Shown: positions 1,082 through 14,199 of the stretch, one piece after another
How the letters are laid out: the number at the start of each line of letters is the position of its first letter
How positions within the stretch are numbered: position 1 is the stretch's first letter
Virus record (IMG/VR): IMGVR_UViG_3300025759_000676
Coordinates: 1-24,117 of that record
Direction: 5' to 3' (one strand)
DNA from: a virus
DNA length: 24,117 nucleotides
Translations under genes and position numbers: made by a program
The notes under the pieces: generated by a model
Told to the model about the DNA's origin: nothing
The model's input: the letters and a program-made list of their open reading frames with translations, nothing else
Database searches by the model: none

Positions 1082-1405
1082 TTATAATTTTATCTTCCTG
1101 ATTGATTTAATCACTGCTGTTGGAATAATAGTTGTATTACCAATATTGTCAAATGTAGGCTTATCTTTGGTCTTGATGTAATCACTAAAAATTCTTGTAA
1201 TTCCTTTTTTTTGGCTAAGCAAATACCCTTTCGATACACATACAGGTAGTTGTTCTTTATGCAAATCTTTTGTTGAAGACCAGCCAGCATCACCTTCGAT
1301 ATCCAGCCACTCTATTTCCACAAATGGATAATCATCAATTATGTTACCGAGATTTTTAAAATCAAAGTTTAGTATTTTAGATTGTTGTCGTTTCTTCTTA
1401 ATCAT
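1082..1405 (-). CDS. Conserved-looking small phage protein, 107 aa, unknown function
   Basis: The ATG at 1405 is preferred to the TTG one codon upstream. The protein starts with a basic run (MIKKKRQQSK) and then has the pattern FVEIEWLDIEGDAGW, followed by CVSKGYLLSQKKG and a C-terminal TTIIPTAVIKSIRKI. The alternation of short hydrophobic strands suggests a small beta-rich, SH3-like fold, and this layout (EWxD...GW...GYL...D...GNTTIIP..VI) is common in small phage proteins of unknown role. The start overlaps the stop of the 1398-1544 gene by 8 nt, indicating translational coupling in the terminase operon. No catalytic motif is visible. Confidence 0.78.
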   Translation of the reverse strand: MIKKKRQQSKILNFDFKNLGNIIDDYPFVEIEWLDIEGDAGWSSTKDLHKEQLPVCVSKGYLLSQKKGITRIFSDYIKTKDKPTFDNIGNTTIIPTAVIKSIRKIKL

Positions 1406-1544
1406 CAATCACTACCTTAATTTTACCAACTGAAGTAGTGATAGTAGAGTTATGTACTTGGTTAAAAACATCTAACCACTCAGACCAACTAACTTTCTTC
1501 AATTGCTGTAACGTCTTGGGATTCAATCGTAATCGTTTTGGCAT
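1398..1544 (-). CDS. Possible small protein, 48 aa, between terminase small subunit and next gene
   Basis: A frame ending at 1398 continues 91 nt beyond the terminase small-subunit stop and overlaps the start of the next gene by 8 nt, so it fills a gap that would otherwise be about 80 nt. The likely start is ATG at 1544 (or 1553), giving MPKRLRLNPKTLQQLKKVSW and then SEWLDVFNQVHNSTI. The N-terminus is basic, followed by a helical segment with Trp residues. The start lies inside the terminase small-subunit gene and neither ATG has a strong ribosome site, so the exact N-terminus is uncertain. The tight coupling with the downstream gene is the main support. Confidence 0.5.
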   Translation of the reverse strand: MPKRLRLNPKTLQQLKKVSWSEWLDVFNQVHNSTITTSVGKIKVVIDD

Positions 1545-2019
1545 TGTAGCCATCGATCTTGTTTGATAGTTCCTCAAGCTTTTTTTCAAGTTGCTCACGT
1601 GACATACCCTCCAAACCACTGACTGTTACTTCTTTTCTATCAACATAAGCTCCAGCCAATTGACCAGATCTATACTCAGCATTAATAGCAGCAGCAAATT
1701 GTTTTTCTTTCTCTGCTTTGTCAGCAATTCTTTCTAACCTTTTATATCTTCTAAGGTTGTCACTCTCGTATTTTTTTACTTCACGCTCAAATAATTTATC
1801 AAAGTATTTAGCTATATGAGGACTGTGTTTTCTAGATAACATTCTAGATGCAACAGATCCATAATCTTTTTCATTAGTGCACACATAACCTGCACGCTTC
1901 AACGCTTCAGCTTGTGTAATAGAACCCCAATCTTTTACATAGATTTCAACAAACATCTTTTGTTTAGGAGTTAAATCTAATTCAGTTCTTAATGATTTCT
2001 TTTTAAGTCCACCAGGCAT
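1489..2019 (-). CDS. terS: Terminase small subunit, 176 aa
   Basis: The N-terminal part reads LTPKQKMFVEIYVKDWGSITQ then AEALKRAGY, the characteristic opening of the Terminase_2 small-subunit family (a helix-turn-helix that recognises the packaging site). It continues with SVASRMLSRKHSPHIAKYFD, the second conserved helix of that family. The C-terminal half is charged and strongly helical, fitting the oligomerisation region that forms the ring and contacts the large subunit. The length is normal for the family. Its ATG overlaps the preceding stop as TAATG. Repeats that could be its DNA target lie about 330 nt upstream (2353-2456). The large subunit is not in the window and should lie further left. 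Confidence 0.85.
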   Translation of the reverse strand: MPGGLKKKSLRTELDLTPKQKMFVEIYVKDWGSITQAEALKRAGYVCTNEKDYGSVASRMLSRKHSPHIAKYFDKLFEREVKKYESDNLRRYKRLERIADKAEKEKQFAAAINAEYRSGQLAGAYVDRKEVTVSGLEGMSREQLEKKLEELSNKIDGYNAKTITIESQDVTAIEES

Positions 2020-2279
2020 TATTTTAATTTGTTTAAACCTCTAATAATAGAACGTCTTTTAGTTTTATCTTTTTCAAATTTTAATTTGCTTTTTAATTCT
2101 TGACTAATTCCAGACTTAACATCTGCTTTAGCAACAGATCTTGTTACATTACTATCTTTTACAATATCAGCAGTTTTTTTACCTTTTGGTGCACTAGTTC
2201 TATAAGACTTATAAGCATCTCTAATTTCTTTAGTAAGGAACTTTCCTGTATCTGTCAAAAACTTCAATTTCTTATACAT
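2019..2279 (-). CDS. Lysine-rich basic protein, 86 aa, unknown
   Basis: Starts at ATG 2279 and ends in a TAATG overlap with the terminase small-subunit start, so the two are translationally coupled. The product is very rich in Lys and Arg (for example KLKSKLK-type runs and a KDKTKRRSIIRGLNKLK end) with no hydrophobic segment, which would suit nucleic-acid binding. No Shine-Dalgarno is visible. A TATATA hexamer lies 10 nt before the ATG and could act as a -10 box, which would make the transcript nearly leaderless. I do not recognise the family; position argues for a packaging accessory. Confidence 0.7.
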   Translation of the reverse strand: MYKKLKFLTDTGKFLTKEIRDAYKSYRTSAPKGKKTADIVKDSNVTRSVAKADVKSGISQELKSKLKFEKDKTKRRSIIRGLNKLK

Positions 2280-2352
2280 AATTTTTTACTATATAGATAT
2301 TTCAGAGTAATGACTAGTTCCTATTAACCAACTGTTTGCGTTCCCGCAAGAG

Positions 2353-2456
2353 TGGTGTCCCTGAGGGACACCATAGGGACACCATAGGGACACCATTAAA
2401 TCGTCTATAATTGTTGTATATAGCCAATAATAGTCTTTAGGGACACCAGGGACACC
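2353..2456. repeat. Cluster of GGGACACC repeats with a central palindrome
   Basis: GGGACACC occurs on the plus strand at 2365-2372, 2376-2383, 2387-2394 (an 11-bp period, about one helical turn), and again at 2440-2447 and 2449-2456 (9-bp period). An inverted copy at 2354-2361 forms the palindrome TGGTGTCCC-tga-GGGACACCA (2353-2373). Iterons on one face of the helix beside a terminase small-subunit operon fit a packaging-recognition site; a replication origin or repressor operator are alternatives. Confidence 0.85.
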
Positions 2457-2590
2457 TCTTTTACCCCCTGGGCACTTTTCTTTTTCAATTACTCTAGATA
2501 ATCTATATAGTAGAATTTTTTCCATTGTCCGGTATCCGGTTTTCTGGTACATTTGTCTTGTGTTTAATTACACATATAAACATTGGTTAA

Positions 2591-2664: not shown

Positions 2665-3087
2665 CTACGCTAATCTCTTTAAATTTTCTTTTAAGATAAG
2701 TTTCTTAATAATTCTTCTCTCCTCCTTACTATTACATTCTCGATACCTCTTATATAAATCACGATACCGAATCCAGGACATCTGCAATTTAGTAAAATGT
2801 ATTTTTCCCTTATCAACTAATTTTAAGTATTCTCCTCTTACAAAATCTGGGTCCATATCTGCTCCCCAACAAACGTCTTGAAAATCTTTACTATTACTAA
2901 CAAACCATTTATGAGAATCATGTTTATGGTAAGTCTCCTTCTTAAATCCTGAAGGGTTTACTGCATCCTCTAACGCCTGCACCAGGATAGCCTGAAATAA
3001 TCTTTGTTCAGCGTAAGATTTAGGTTTTATAATCTCTAGGCTCAATTTAATGCCCAAAAATTTTAGTAAGCTCGGAGCACAGTTCAT
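2665..3087 (-). CDS. Small conserved phage protein, 140 aa, unknown function
   Basis: The central part reads YAEQRLFQAILVQALEDA, then HKWFVSNSKDFQDVCWGADMD followed by PDFVRGEY. The arrangement of an RLxQAxxxQAxxDA helix followed by a W-(F/L)-x-S-x-S-x-DF-x-x-(V/I)-C-x-x-A-x-x-(D/N)-PD-x-VR segment is one I recognise from small uncharacterised proteins of alphaproteobacterial phages and prophages. The C-terminus is Lys/Arg-rich. The ATG at 3087 overlaps the upstream gene by 41 nt; a TTG at 3045 placed right after the upstream stop is an alternative and would begin at the conserved region. No function is known to me. Confidence 0.75.
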   Translation of the reverse strand: MNCAPSLLKFLGIKLSLEIIKPKSYAEQRLFQAILVQALEDAVNPSGFKKETYHKHDSHKWFVSNSKDFQDVCWGADMDPDFVRGEYLKLVDKGKIHFTKLQMSWIRYRDLYKRYRECNSKEERRIIKKLILKENLKRLA

Positions 3088-3990: not shown

Positions 3991-4779
3991 CTATTTGTCT
4001 TGATACTCTTTAGTTTTGTAAAACTCAACTAAATTTATTTTATTTTTTTGAGTTAGTCCTGCGTTATATATTCTCTCAATGATCGCAATATAATCTGCAG
4101 TTGATGTACCCGTTAAGAACCATGAAGACTTACTCTTGCAAGCAGTTTTAAATCTTCGGTGATCAAACTTAGGATGCTTGTCAGCTACAATATAAGACAC
4201 CACCATCGAACGTTTAAATCTTTTGTTCTTTGGAGACTCCATACCATAGAAGTATTTTTTAAGTTGCATCAATTGAGATCCAATACGATCTGTATGCTCA
4301 ATACCTCCTGCAGGAATTACAAACCGTCCTGTTTTAAAATCATTACTGATTCTTGACCACAGTGAAGTTTGTTTTAATAATAGAACTACCATCTCTGCAA
4401 CATTGATTCCGTACTGTTGCATTTTGTTTCTACAAATTCTGTAGTCCATTTTATTTCTTGCACAGTGTTGATCTAAATAATTTTCCATAGACCAGTTCTT
4501 ACGACCTGTGTTTAGTCTAGCCACATCTAATGGATCATCAGAGTCCATAATAATAAATGGAATTTTTAGATCTAATTGTTTTCTAGCTTCTAATGTATGT
4601 TGGCCATCAATGACTTCCATATTTTTATTTACACGAATTGGATCGTATAAATCTTTTTCTTGAATCAACTTTTTAAGTTGCTGCACGTGTGCTTCATCTA
4701 CAGGTCTGTTACCTCTAGTCTTTTTGAACTTACTGTAATCAGTAGTTTCAAAAAATTTGTTTTGTATTGCTTTGTTCAT
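3991..4779 (-). CDS. ParB/sulfiredoxin-like domain protein, 262 aa
   Basis: The first ~90 residues match the ParB/Srx fold: a N-terminal RPVDEAHVQQLKKLI helix, the strand DPIRVNKN, and the motif EVIDGQHTLEARKQL, equivalent to the GERRxxA box of ParB where CTP or nucleotide is bound, followed by a strand IPFIIMDSDD. The remaining ~170 residues are helical and contain no ParB helix-turn-helix I can identify. ParB-type domains in phages serve in partition, as regulators, or as nucleases or modifying enzymes. No ParA is visible nearby, so classical plasmid partition is unlikely from this window alone. A strong GGAGG precedes the ATG at 4779. The gene directly precedes the ribbon-helix-helix-like gene. 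Confidence 0.78.
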   Translation of the reverse strand: MNKAIQNKFFETTDYSKFKKTRGNRPVDEAHVQQLKKLIQEKDLYDPIRVNKNMEVIDGQHTLEARKQLDLKIPFIIMDSDDPLDVARLNTGRKNWSMENYLDQHCARNKMDYRICRNKMQQYGINVAEMVVLLLKQTSLWSRISNDFKTGRFVIPAGGIEHTDRIGSQLMQLKKYFYGMESPKNKRFKRSMVVSYIVADKHPKFDHRRFKTACKSKSSWFLTGTSTADYIAIIERIYNAGLTQKNKINLVEFYKTKEYQDK

Positions 4780-9817: not shown

Positions 9818-11348
9818 CTTTATTTTTATGCTCTGTTTGTTTTGGTAATGCTACAACCCAATGCCTACTGCTAATGTTTTGAAATTTCTTTTTAGGTAAA
9901 GCTTTTCCTTGTTCTAAAAATCTCGTGCATTCTTTTTCATTCCAGTTGTAACCAACCTTTTTCATAAATGATCTAAATGTTTCTAATTTAAATCTCATTT
10001 CATTCTCATCTCTCCAGATATTACCAGAATCTATTTGATCAAACTCAGTAGTATCCTCAACATCTTCAAGAAACCTAGTCATCCTAGAATTGAATACATC
10101 TTCTCGCTCTTCACCTGCATCAAAACCTTCCATGTCTTGTTTGTTAGATACTAACTCTTCTAACCAATCTCTGTATGGATCTGGATCACGTTTAGTTGGT
10201 TTTAAAGATCTCCAAACTATATCATAATTTAATAGTTGTTCTCCCAACAGTTGCTGTTGGTATAATTGTTTTGTTGAAAGTCTAATTGATTTACCTTGTA
10301 TAGGTAAAATCCAATAAGGTTCTGGATAAGAGTTTACTTTTAAAAGCTTACCAACCTCAGGCAAAGCTTCATTAGTTCCAATACCATGCTTACGTCTTAA
10401 ACATGTGCTTGATGAACAATGCATTCTAGCAATAGATGTTTTACATTTATAAGCATACTCTTTGTTCTCAACACCCTTAAATATATTATTTAACTCCTGC
10501 GGGTGTAGTGGTTCAGAACATACTTTAGTCATTAAATTTCTAGTCCAATCCTCGTACATAACTGGATCTGCATTAATTTTTTTTGCTAATACAGCTACGT
10601 TGAACATTGCATCATTACGACCTTCACCTTTTTGAACTTTGTTTTTCATAAAGTTAACTACGCAAGGTGGGTAGTCTTTTGTTTCATCGTCTTGAAATAT
10701 TTTAAGTTTATTAAACTCTTTAGGATTTAATCTATAGTCCGCTACAAACTTATATAAGTTCTCAAGCTTAATAGAATTACCATCATTATCCATAGCCACT
10801 CTTGTAGTTAAGTGTGCTTTTTGATATGGCAGATTTACAAAATTACCTTTTCTTTTTTTATTCCAATCTTCGGGTGTAAGATCTACTTCATCCTGTGCAG
10901 GATAAATATCTGTTGTTGTATCATTTACACCTAGATCGGATGCAAGTTCAATTAATTTTTTACGCATTGAAGATGCAGGAACTACACCATCAATAAATAA
11001 AACTAAATGGAGTCCGTTGGATTTTGATCTGAATGGGATGAGTGGGTATTTCCTTTTCCGTATAACCGATATAACGTCCTTATGCTGTATATTATAACGA
11101 TCAACATCGATGACCCCCCAACTGCATGTATTATCATCTCGAATGGGAACGCTTCCATAGTATTTTTCTCCTTTTAAATGTTCTAACCAATCTTCCCTGG
11201 TCATAGGCCTAGGTTCGACCCAATGTTTAAATTCTTGCTTACCATCACGACTTCTTGTTTGTCCTAATGGTCTGGAAGCACCAAAATATGTAGCAGAGCC
11301 CTGGAAGAGTTCTACAAACTCTTCCAGGGTGTTGTCAAGTATGTCCAT
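9774..11348 (-). CDS. Archaeo-eukaryotic-type primase (PrimPol), 524 aa
   Basis: The N-terminal half shows AEP primase landmarks: GVIDVDRY (78-85, with the metal-binding D81 and D83), SKSNGLHLVLF (108-118, including the S-x-H motif), and KGNFVNLPYQ (167-176). A PriCT-like helical region follows (about 241-300, starting GEGRNDAMFN), then CKTSIARMHCSSSTCLRRKH (302-321), whose three Cys and two His could bind zinc. The C-terminal 200 residues are helical and unrecognised, with no Walker A, so no helicase is fused on. It would make primers, perhaps also extend them, for the PolA downstream. A 13-bp hairpin lies just after the start codon. Confidence 0.85.
   Translation of the reverse strand: MDILDNTLEEFVELFQGSATYFGASRPLGQTRSRDGKQEFKHWVEPRPMTREDWLEHLKGEKYYGSVPIRDDNTCSWGVIDVDRYNIQHKDVISVIRKRKYPLIPFRSKSNGLHLVLFIDGVVPASSMRKKLIELASDLGVNDTTTDIYPAQDEVDLTPEDWNKKRKGNFVNLPYQKAHLTTRVAMDNDGNSIKLENLYKFVADYRLNPKEFNKLKIFQDDETKDYPPCVVNFMKNKVQKGEGRNDAMFNVAVLAKKINADPVMYEDWTRNLMTKVCSEPLHPQELNNIFKGVENKEYAYKCKTSIARMHCSSSTCLRRKHGIGTNEALPEVGKLLKVNSYPEPYWILPIQGKSIRLSTKQLYQQQLLGEQLLNYDIVWRSLKPTKRDPDPYRDWLEELVSNKQDMEGFDAGEEREDVFNSRMTRFLEDVEDTTEFDQIDSGNIWRDENEMRFKLETFRSFMKKVGYNWNEKECTRFLEQGKALPKKKFQNISSRHWVVALPKQTEHKNKDVKFVKATAAWEDN
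11299..11329. repeat. Perfect 13-bp hairpin in the primase gene start
   Basis: CCCTGGAAGAGTT (11299-11311) and AACTCTTCCAGGG (11317-11329) are perfectly inverted with a 5-nt loop. On the minus-strand mRNA the stem begins 19 nt after the start codon of the primase gene, within reach of an initiating ribosome. Confidence 0.85.
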
Positions 11349-11349
11349 A

Positions 11350-12141
11350 CTAGAATGGAGTTTTTTCTACTTGTTCTTCTTTACCGTGGTTAACTCTGAC
11401 AGCACCTTTTTTACATGATTCGTAAAACTCATAAGCTGCTTTGATTGTATCTTCGCTCTCCACTGTACCCAAGTGTTCTATCTCCCAACCGTACCAAGAA
11501 CCTAAATTGTTTTTTTCTAAAACAGTTTTAAGTGTGTACTGCTGAGTGAATGGTGCAGGTCTAAAGAAACCTTTACCGTCTTTTCTTTTCTGTCTCAAAG
11601 ACATCATCATTGAATTCCATTTTTTGGATTTCTTTCTTTGAGTAGATTTCATAGTAATCATAGCTGTAGAAGATTTGTCCTCTTGCACTATCATAACGTA
11701 GTGAGAAGCTGTCTCTTCAATGTAATTACCATTCTCAAGCCTATCCTTACCATCGTCACCTCTGGTAGTTTTAGTCATGATATCCGAATCAGATGCATAT
11801 ACATTTACAGGAGCAACAGCACCTTTTTCTCTGTCTCTCCACTCAATGTATTCTAATTTATAATAACAAGGGATAACTGTTATACCTCCTGCGCCATCAT
11901 AAAGTTCATCTGTTACGGTGTTGTAGATCATTCCAGGTCTTGCTTCAGGATTAAACTGACTATCACCTTGCGTTACTTGTGGTGACAACTGTCCTAGAAC
12001 TTTAAGAAATGGTAATGCTAAACTCTTGGAATCTACATTATCAAATCCAGCATCAGCAAATTGCTCTAAATCAATATTTGCAACTGCTCCTGCTTCTTTT
12101 TTAATCGCTACTTCGTTCGATTGTTCGTCTTTTATCTTCAT
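11350..12141 (-). CDS. Probable single-stranded DNA-binding protein, 263 aa
   Basis: Contains the conserved phage block LALPFLKVLGQLSPQV (about 41-56), then PGMIYNTVTDELYDG (69-83) and ITVIPCYYKLEYIEWRDRE (87-105), which I recognise from a widespread phage family sitting beside polymerase and primase genes and often taken as an SSB of the T7 gp2.5 sort. The last residues, EEQVEKTPF, are acidic with a terminal Pro-Phe, the end used by bacterial SSBs to dock partners. It lies directly before the primase gene, separated only by the stop. AGGT precedes the ATG at 12141. SSB is inference from position and tail; the family match itself is firmer. Confidence 0.75.
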   Translation of the reverse strand: MKIKDEQSNEVAIKKEAGAVANIDLEQFADAGFDNVDSKSLALPFLKVLGQLSPQVTQGDSQFNPEARPGMIYNTVTDELYDGAGGITVIPCYYKLEYIEWRDREKGAVAPVNVYASDSDIMTKTTRGDDGKDRLENGNYIEETASHYVMIVQEDKSSTAMITMKSTQRKKSKKWNSMMMSLRQKRKDGKGFFRPAPFTQQYTLKTVLEKNNLGSWYGWEIEHLGTVESEDTIKAAYEFYESCKKGAVRVNHGKEEQVEKTPF

Positions 12142-12701: not shown

Positions 12702-12771
12702 ATTTTCCTCCTGATGGGGTCTTAAATTATTCATTTGATCTTTGCAAGAAAAAAATATAAAAACTTTCAAG
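12702..12771. promoter_or_regulatory. Divergent promoter region, 70 nt
   Basis: The leftward replication operon (ATG 12701, strong AGGAGG) and the rightward SNF2 gene (ATG 12772) diverge here. For the rightward gene TTGATC (12735-12740), 15 nt, and TATAAA (12756-12761) can be read; this would start the mRNA about 4 nt before the ATG, where no ribosome site is present. A TTGCAA palindrome lies at 12742-12747. No clear leftward -10 was found. Confidence 0.4.
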
Positions 12772-14199
12772 ATGTGGAAATACCCCTATAAGACCAAGCC
12801 GTATGAGCACCAACGGAATGCTCTAAACGATTCAGCTGAAAAAACTGAATGGGCTTATTTTATGGAAATGGGTACAGGCAAAACTAAAGTAACTATAGAT
12901 AATATTGCTTATCTTTATCTTCAAAGAAAAATAACTAGTGTTTTAATTATTGCACCTAAATCAGTTTATACAAACTGGGAGTCTGAGATAGAAACTCATA
13001 TGCCTGACGTTCTAAAATATAAAATTTATAAATGGAATATAGATAAACCAAAAGATTATTTTAAGATGGACGAATCACCAGACTTAAAAATATTTTTAAT
13101 TAATGTTGAAGCTTTATCTACTAAAAGAGGCTACCAAGCTTGTGTAGAATACTTACTTAAAAATAAATTAAATTTTGTAGCACTGGATGAATCAACCACA
13201 ATAAAAAACCGATCAGCAAAAAGAACAAAAAACATTTTATCACTATCCAAAGTATCCCATATAAAGCGTATACTAACAGGATCCCCAATAACAAAATCTC
13301 CATTAGATCTATTTACACAATGTGCGTTCTTAAGTCCAGAATTATTAGGTTTTCATAGTTATTTAGCATTTAGGAATAGGTATGCTGAGATGACCGATAT
13401 ACCGGTTGGTTCGGGTAGATATATTTCTATACCTAAATACTACAAAAGATTAGATGAGTTAGAAGAGAAGATGAAGTCTTTTGCGACCAGGATTCGTAAG
13501 GACCAATGTTTAGACCTTAAACCTAAAGTTAGATCTAAAAGGTACATAGAACTAGAAGGTGATGGTAAGAAAATCTATGAACGATTAAAACACCATGCCT
13601 TAGCTATTGTTGAAGACAGTACGATATCTTTCTCAAATAAACTTACTGAGATTATTAAACTCCACCAGGTGTGTAATGGTTTTACAAAAAATGATGATGG
13701 TGAGATCATGGAATTACATAAGTCTAAGTTAAATGCTTTAGATGAAATACTTGAAGAAACAGATGGTAAAGTAATTATCTGGGCTAACTATTTATATAAC
13801 ATTCATGAGATCAAAGACTTCTTAACTAAAAAATACGGAGAGGATTCAACCGTATGTATTTATGGTGCTGTTGATGTTGAAGATAGACAAGATGCTGTCA
13901 AAAGAATTCAAGAAGATGATAAAACAAGATTCCTAGTTGCTAACCCAACTACAGGAGGTTTTGGGCTTACGCTTACTGCCTGTAATACAGTGATATATTT
14001 TTCTAATAATTATAATTTAGAAGTCCGAATGCAATCAGAAGACCGTGCTCATAGATTGGGCCAAAAAGGCACTGTTGTTTATATTGATATTGTAGCCAGG
14101 GGTACATTAGATGAAGCTATAATGAAATCTCTTACTAGTAAAGGTCAAATCGCTGCTAAAACTTTAGGTGAAGAAGATCTTAAGAGCTGGTTGCTGTAA
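12772..14199 (+). CDS. SNF2-type superfamily 2 helicase, 475 aa
   Basis: Superfamily 2 motifs in order: Q-like region YEHQRNAL (11-18), Walker A MEMGTGKTK (31-39), motif Ia IIAPKS (59-64), Walker B VALDEST (136-142), motif III ILTGSPI (167-173), motif IV-like VIIWANY (334-340), motif V GGFGLTLTACN (395-405), and motif VI QSEDRAHRLGQ (421-431) with R425 and R428. The Q-x-x-DRAHRxGQ box is the SNF2/SWI2 signature, so it probably translocates on double-stranded DNA instead of opening forks. Only the plus strand carries it within the replication block; it overlaps the nuclease gene tail to tail by 20 nt. The ATG at 12772 has no Shine-Dalgarno. Roles in branch migration or fork remodelling are plausible. 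Confidence 0.93.
   Translation: MWKYPYKTKPYEHQRNALNDSAEKTEWAYFMEMGTGKTKVTIDNIAYLYLQRKITSVLIIAPKSVYTNWESEIETHMPDVLKYKIYKWNIDKPKDYFKMDESPDLKIFLINVEALSTKRGYQACVEYLLKNKLNFVALDESTTIKNRSAKRTKNILSLSKVSHIKRILTGSPITKSPLDLFTQCAFLSPELLGFHSYLAFRNRYAEMTDIPVGSGRYISIPKYYKRLDELEEKMKSFATRIRKDQCLDLKPKVRSKRYIELEGDGKKIYERLKHHALAIVEDSTISFSNKLTEIIKLHQVCNGFTKNDDGEIMELHKSKLNALDEILEETDGKVIIWANYLYNIHEIKDFLTKKYGEDSTVCIYGAVDVEDRQDAVKRIQEDDKTRFLVANPTTGGFGLTLTACNTVIYFSNNYNLEVRMQSEDRAHRLGQKGTVVYIDIVARGTLDEAIMKSLTSKGQIAAKTLGEEDLKSWLL

Follow-up and report, generated by a model that had tools for sequence, protein, structure and literature searches.

The window analyzed here is a stretch of 24,117 nucleotides from a viral genome (IMG/VR record IMGVR_UViG_3300025759_000676, positions 1 to 24,117). 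Beside its gene for the terminase small subunit (TerS) lies a non-coding element of ~230 bp that contains an array of short repeats (iterons). The array sits in a 385-bp gap between a 140-aa open reading frame (ORF; 2665-3087) and a small basic ORF that is followed by TerS. The genes and features are listed below, with close relatives referred to as window type.

1082-1408, minus strand: 108-aa protein (PHROG_25889), a constant presence next to TerS and the element in each of the four lineages described below
1489-2019, minus strand: TerS (PHROG_51, E=1.5e-11; Pfam Terminase_2, 29.7 bits)
2019-2279, minus strand: basic ORF of 86 aa, between the element and TerS
2284-2311, plus strand: TerS-side arm of the outer inverted repeat, with the core ACTATATAGAT
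2336-2351, plus strand: G+C-rich segment TTGCGTTCCCGCAAGA on the TerS side, conserved among many contigs of the window type; putative site of cleavage or accessory site
2354-2361, minus strand: inverted iteron copy; inverted copies recur in most relatives
2365-2372, plus strand: iteron 1 of the 11-bp trio, a copy of GGGACACC
2376-2383, plus strand: iteron 2 of the trio, a copy of GGGACACC
2387-2394, plus strand: iteron 3 of the trio, a copy of GGGACACC
2403-2423, minus strand: conserved spacer core, reading CTATATACAACAATTATAGAC on this strand; candidate bend or IHF-like site
2440-2447, plus strand: iteron 4, first of the distal pair, a copy of GGGACACC at a 9-bp period with iteron 5
2449-2456, plus strand: iteron 5, second of the distal pair, 62 bp (~6 turns) from iteron 3
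2463-2474, no strand assigned: conserved quasi-palindromic segment ACCCCCTGGGCA, beyond the distal pair
2488-2515, minus strand: distal arm of the outer inverted repeat, pairing with 2284-2311

The motif GGGACACC occurs six times in the whole window, always within 2354-2456; 100 dinucleotide shuffles of the window contained 0.26 copies on average and never more than one. The initial annotation had described five direct copies, a trio at an 11-bp and a pair at a 9-bp period, with an inverted copy forming a palindrome, all within 105 bp just upstream of the genes for a basic protein and TerS. This description proved accurate: the direct copies start at 2365, 2376, 2387, 2440, and 2449, the inverted copy (2354-2361) builds the palindrome TGGTGTCCCT-G-AGGGACACCA, and the neighbors (2019-2279 and 1489-2019, both on the minus strand) are those claimed. 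The outer arms, which are 82% complementary over 28 nt, enclose the array, exceed shuffled sequence (p=0.003), and recur in most relatives; the initial annotation had noted neither these arms nor the return of the layout, with other iteron words, in relatives. A scan of the window detected no second array comparable to this one.

The TerS assignment exceeds the Pfam Terminase_2 cut-off of 26.1 bits. Only 8 of the 117 sequences compared (a set that includes the window) contain a match to the 86-aa basic ORF, so it is not a constant part of the locus. Three other genes of the window deserve mention. A 73-aa ORF (1398-1619, minus strand) overlaps the TerS 3' end in another frame and has tblastn matches at ~33-100% identity in 106/117 related sequences; it may be a real overlapping gene, or the matches may reflect only conserved TerS DNA. 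In most window-type contigs, the gene for a ParB-like protein (PHROG_12305, E=3.7e-25; 3991-4779, minus strand) lies 1.5 kb from the element. The sole long plus-strand gene encodes an SNF2-type helicase (12742-14199) and is convergent with the other genes of the replication module.

Identical iterons were sought at the equivalent place in relatives and were found in more than 100 contigs. The 19-mer GGGACACCATAGGGACACC matches 116 IMG/VR stretches, nearly all with one architecture beside TerS, and a second scan, based on the distal pair, added members with a slightly different trio. TerS was found in 112 of the 117 sequences by tblastn with window proteins; among the matches listed it lies on one constant side of the element, at identities down to ~57%. 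Conservation over 31 dereplicated elements is highest in the iterons, in the outer arms, and in parts of the spacer. The array is single-copy in each of five long genomes (57-83 kb). Four sequences that matched the DNA patterns (L097, L247, L252, and L260) were set aside for lack of the architecture; L097, a GGGACACCATAGGGACACC match, is unrelated. The window element has no blastn match in annotated phages, and the isolates carry other iterons.

The nearest isolates and named genomes by polA and TerS are HTVC023P (MN698239), 023Pt_psg01, HTVC027P (MN698241), and DSL-LC04, with identities between the window and HTVC023P of 61% for polA and 48% for TerS. Pelagiphages of the HTVC023P and HTVC027P types have an element of like kind with different iterons. 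In the HTVC023P type the iteron is CTAGGAAA and the array lies ~60-190 bp upstream of TerS: a pair with a period of 8 bp, then a spacer and a pair with a period of 11 bp, followed by one inverted and one additional copy. A blind k-mer scan recovered TGGCACA as the iteron of the psg01 type, and TGTTACAA, TGCTACAA, TGTCTCAA, GTGTGACT, GTGAGACA, and CTGCTTCA as iterons of the HTVC027P type. Both of these types have an inverted TerS, with the array past the 3' end of that gene and adjoining the homologue of the 108-aa protein. Overall, the layout is constant in at least four lineages while the iteron word changes completely: a close pair (8-9 bp), a spacer, and two or three copies at a period of 10-11 bp (the psg01 type has 9-bp pairs), usually with one inverted copy and mostly with outer inverted repeats, within ~1.9 kb of the TerS start. 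G+C-rich segments also occur at the equivalent place in the HTVC027P and psg01 types.

Several other repeats were noted in these relatives. HTVC023P has a 33-bp unit (CAAATCTTGAGAATACATACCGAAAATTTTTTG) repeated three times in tandem immediately downstream of TerS (L120:12469-12567). Apart from the element, the HTVC027P type has a dense CAAGC array, repeating every 7 bp, upstream of the inverted TerS (L122:15141-15277), and psg01-type loci have GCGAGC/CAAGC arrays ~450-580 bp upstream of the TerS start. Such CGAGC/CAAGC arrays (~500-700 bp upstream of TerS in the two types) score in the geometry search described below, but they are a different, simpler repeat and were rejected. L321 and L344 carry CTAGGAAACTAGGAAAA arrays in different flanks, close to a contig end, and these are possibly another lineage of the element.

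We searched gene-defined windows of 330-350 bp for the layout with free spacing, allowing 7-12 bp for the first pair, 25-90 for the gap, and 7-14 for the second pair. Scores were above all 25 shuffles in 25/37 HTVC023P-type, 25/56 HTVC027P-type, and 17/17 psg01-type sequences. The main solutions are (8,43-44,11), its other-strand reading (11,43,8), and (9,74-75,8-9). Distances from the first to the third copy cluster at 51-54, 64-67, 74-75, and 83-85 bp, or about 5, 6, 7, and 8 helical turns. Outer inverted repeats of type-specific sequence exceed shuffles in most of the window, HTVC023P, and HTVC027P-type elements tested; in a few, such as L060, L079, L441, and L447, they do not.

The spacer also retains a core. 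The HTVC023P type shares that of the window, as GATATACAACAATTCTAGAG, and matches to TATCAACACTTTTAG amount to 11.4-12.3 of 15 positions in three lineages and 10.8 in the psg01 type, versus 8.5-8.9 in shuffles. Spacers of the window and HTVC023P types have this core in forward orientation, and those of the HTVC027P type mostly have it reversed. The IHF consensus WATCAANNNNTTR is perfect in 26/46 HTVC027P-type and 12/85 window-type spacers, is hardly enriched in those of the HTVC023P type, and was not met in those of the psg01 type. The spacer thus likely contains a site for a bending protein in some lineages, and a merely putative one in the others.

The protein that would read these words is TerS. 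Its predicted structure has an N-terminal helix-turn-helix (HTH) and a long helical hairpin, and its profile matches Protein Data Bank entries 4zc3, 3zqp, and 2cmp (E ~1e-4), which we take, partly from a review (PMC9611059), to be the TerS of SF6 or SF6-like phages. A fold search with the model returned no significant match; the top, non-significant one is a small terminase. Mantel tests, which do not remove shared descent, were run on 38 HTVC027P-type phages. Iteron distance correlates with that of the TerS N-terminal half, both when corrected for the C-terminal half (r=0.30, p=0.005) and when corrected for the 108-aa neighbor (r=0.33, p=0.011); the reverse tests were not significant at 0.05. 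Within this type, iteron differences thus appear to follow the HTH-containing half of TerS, which we regard as support and not proof because shared descent weakens such tests.

Comparable sites are known from other phages. In lambda-type cosB (lambda, 21, N15/Monarch), TerS-binding repeats lie beside TerS in two groups around an IHF-bent spacer (in lambda, in the order R3-IHF-R2-R1), and related phages retain this plan while the repeats and TerS recognition change (PMC4669245, PMC4856287). In lambda, 21, and N15, a single scaffold can accommodate joint changes of the repeat sequence and of the helix by which TerS recognizes it (PMC4669245, PMC4856287). The element has the cosB-type grouping of repeats around a spacer, with the IHF consensus in the HTVC027P type and part of the window type but not in the psg01 type. 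In contrast to cosB, it has shorter iterons, most of them direct repeats at 10-11 bp, as well as outer inverted repeats, and its TerS is of the Terminase_2, SF6/SPP1-like kind rather than the gpNu1 type. The 161-bp P1 pac is similarly built of short repeats in two clusters (HEX4 and HEX3) with an IHF site, is cut between or beside them, and is tied to the TerS gene (PMC10028697). The P1 site, however, lies inside pacA and consists of TGATCA/G hexamers with Dam sites, whereas the element is intergenic, with GGGACACC iterons that contain no GATC (no Dam sites were found) and with outer inverted repeats. The pac of SPP1/SF6 (pacL-pacC-pacR) shares the Terminase_2/SF6-type TerS, as judged from the profile match to SF6 TerS, and its several TerS contacts flanking the cut, with DNA bending, would have a counterpart in the proposed reading of the element; pacL and pacR lack shared identity (PMC4856287), whereas the repeats here are identical or nearly so. 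The element would thus work like lambda cosB or P1 pac but belongs to neither, given its SF6/SPP1-kind TerS and other repeats. In the literature searches made, no pelagiphage site of this kind was found described, and the papers listed in a search for the motif were off-topic, mostly primer tables.

Given a packaging role, the first cut could lead to headful packaging from a pac site or to fixed cohesive ends at a cos site, a question we graded separately from the alternatives to packaging. Among contigs with the trio, 6/97 true ends on the distal side lie no more than 100 bp from it, versus 1/99 on the TerS side, compared with about one end per 100 bp further away. These small numbers hint weakly at the direction expected if packaging starts at the element and runs towards TerS, and assembly breakage could cause them. 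TerS-anchored HTVC023P and HTVC027P contigs also often end in the element zone, an informal impression from sets anchored on one side. A layout close to that of lambda cosB would suit a cos site, and the G+C-rich segment conserved towards TerS could represent a cosN-like site, although no cosN was identified in the element. Most contigs, however, run through the element, many relatives assemble as circles (PMC9599517), and the 023Pt_psg01 record is a circular assembly, so headful packaging fits better than fixed cohesive ends. The SF6/SPP1-like TerS, of a pac family, suggests the same. A packaging site here would therefore probably be of the pac kind, to judge from these features, and we consider a cos site unlikely.

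The main alternative to packaging is a phage replication origin, at which an initiator would bind the iterons and the AT-rich spacer would serve as the unwinding or start region. Iteron origins of plasmids and phages likewise place short direct repeats beside AT-rich DNA, and the element is present once per genome, where the replication and late modules meet, in a window with no other comparable array; the IHF-like site would fit an origin too. Unlike those origins, however, the element has two flanking clusters at whole helical turns and stays with TerS from lineage to lineage. Its constant neighbors in all four are TerS and the 108-aa protein, with polA, primase, and helicase several kb away, profile annotation of the neighbors revealed no initiator gene, and iteron change tracks the HTH half of TerS. 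GC and AT skew follow the one-sided coding strand and are uninformative here. Overall, an origin seems distinctly improbable. An autoregulatory operator or promoter of the TerS operon, as could be suggested by the window and HTVC023P types, in which the element lies upstream of TerS, is very improbable and was rejected, since TerS is inverted in the psg01 and HTVC027P types, with the array past its 3' end and hence off the TerS promoter, no single gene is constantly first downstream, and a two-cluster ~230-bp layout with outer repeats is unusual for an operator.

We therefore favor, with a probability of roughly 0.7, a packaging-initiation site of an HTVC023P-related pelagiphage that would be recognized by TerS. 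The array is single-copy, intergenic, and highly non-random, and its helical phasing and the IHF-consensus spacers of the HTVC027P and window types resemble known composite packaging sites (PMC4856287, PMC10028697). Relatives keep the layout near TerS while the word changes, which suggests an address label that is probably read by the packaging enzyme to select phage DNA. Against a packaging site, the more distant DSL-LC04 has a homologous TerS but no array detectable by k-mer and geometry scans, and the IHF consensus is patchy across lineages. The packaging role proposed in the initial annotation is thus partly supported by the recurrence of the layout beside TerS, with the same and other iterons, and by iteron change that follows the TerS N-terminal half; this change and the inverted TerS of two lineages favor a packaging site over an operator, and the contig-end counts lean weakly the expected way. 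In freshwater DSL-LC04 (L123), the 640-bp gap upstream of the TerS operon (10760-11420), which has no detectable iteron array, holds a 36-bp inverted repeat (11122-11157/11289-11324).

At such a packaging site, the HTH domains of an oligomeric TerS would bind the iterons, most of them on one helix face, and a host IHF/HU-like protein would bend the spacer so that both clusters contact one TerS assembly. TerS would then position the large subunit so that it cuts first within or next to the site, with packaging proceeding towards TerS. A bolder possibility, which we put forward tentatively and rate somewhat below even odds, is a modular packaging-specificity cassette. One nucleoprotein scaffold (helical phasing, bend core, and outer inverted repeats) would be retained while the word read by TerS is replaced repeatedly, giving at least eight packaging "languages" in one abundant pelagiphage clade and perhaps preventing cross-packaging in co-infected cells. 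If so, the outer inverted repeats would be a component undescribed for the cosB and pac sites compared.

Whether small terminases of the SF6/SPP1 class read sequence at all is unsettled (PMC9611059). The locus offers a natural experiment on this point, with a single scaffold on which iteron words are numerous and, among close relatives, variants of the TerS HTH change alongside them. Two relatives, HTVC023P and HTVC027P, are in culture. The family opens sequence recognition by TerS, the specificity of packaging, and cross-packaging to direct tests. The element also provides a sequence signature for typing and orienting the genomes of an abundant marine phage group.
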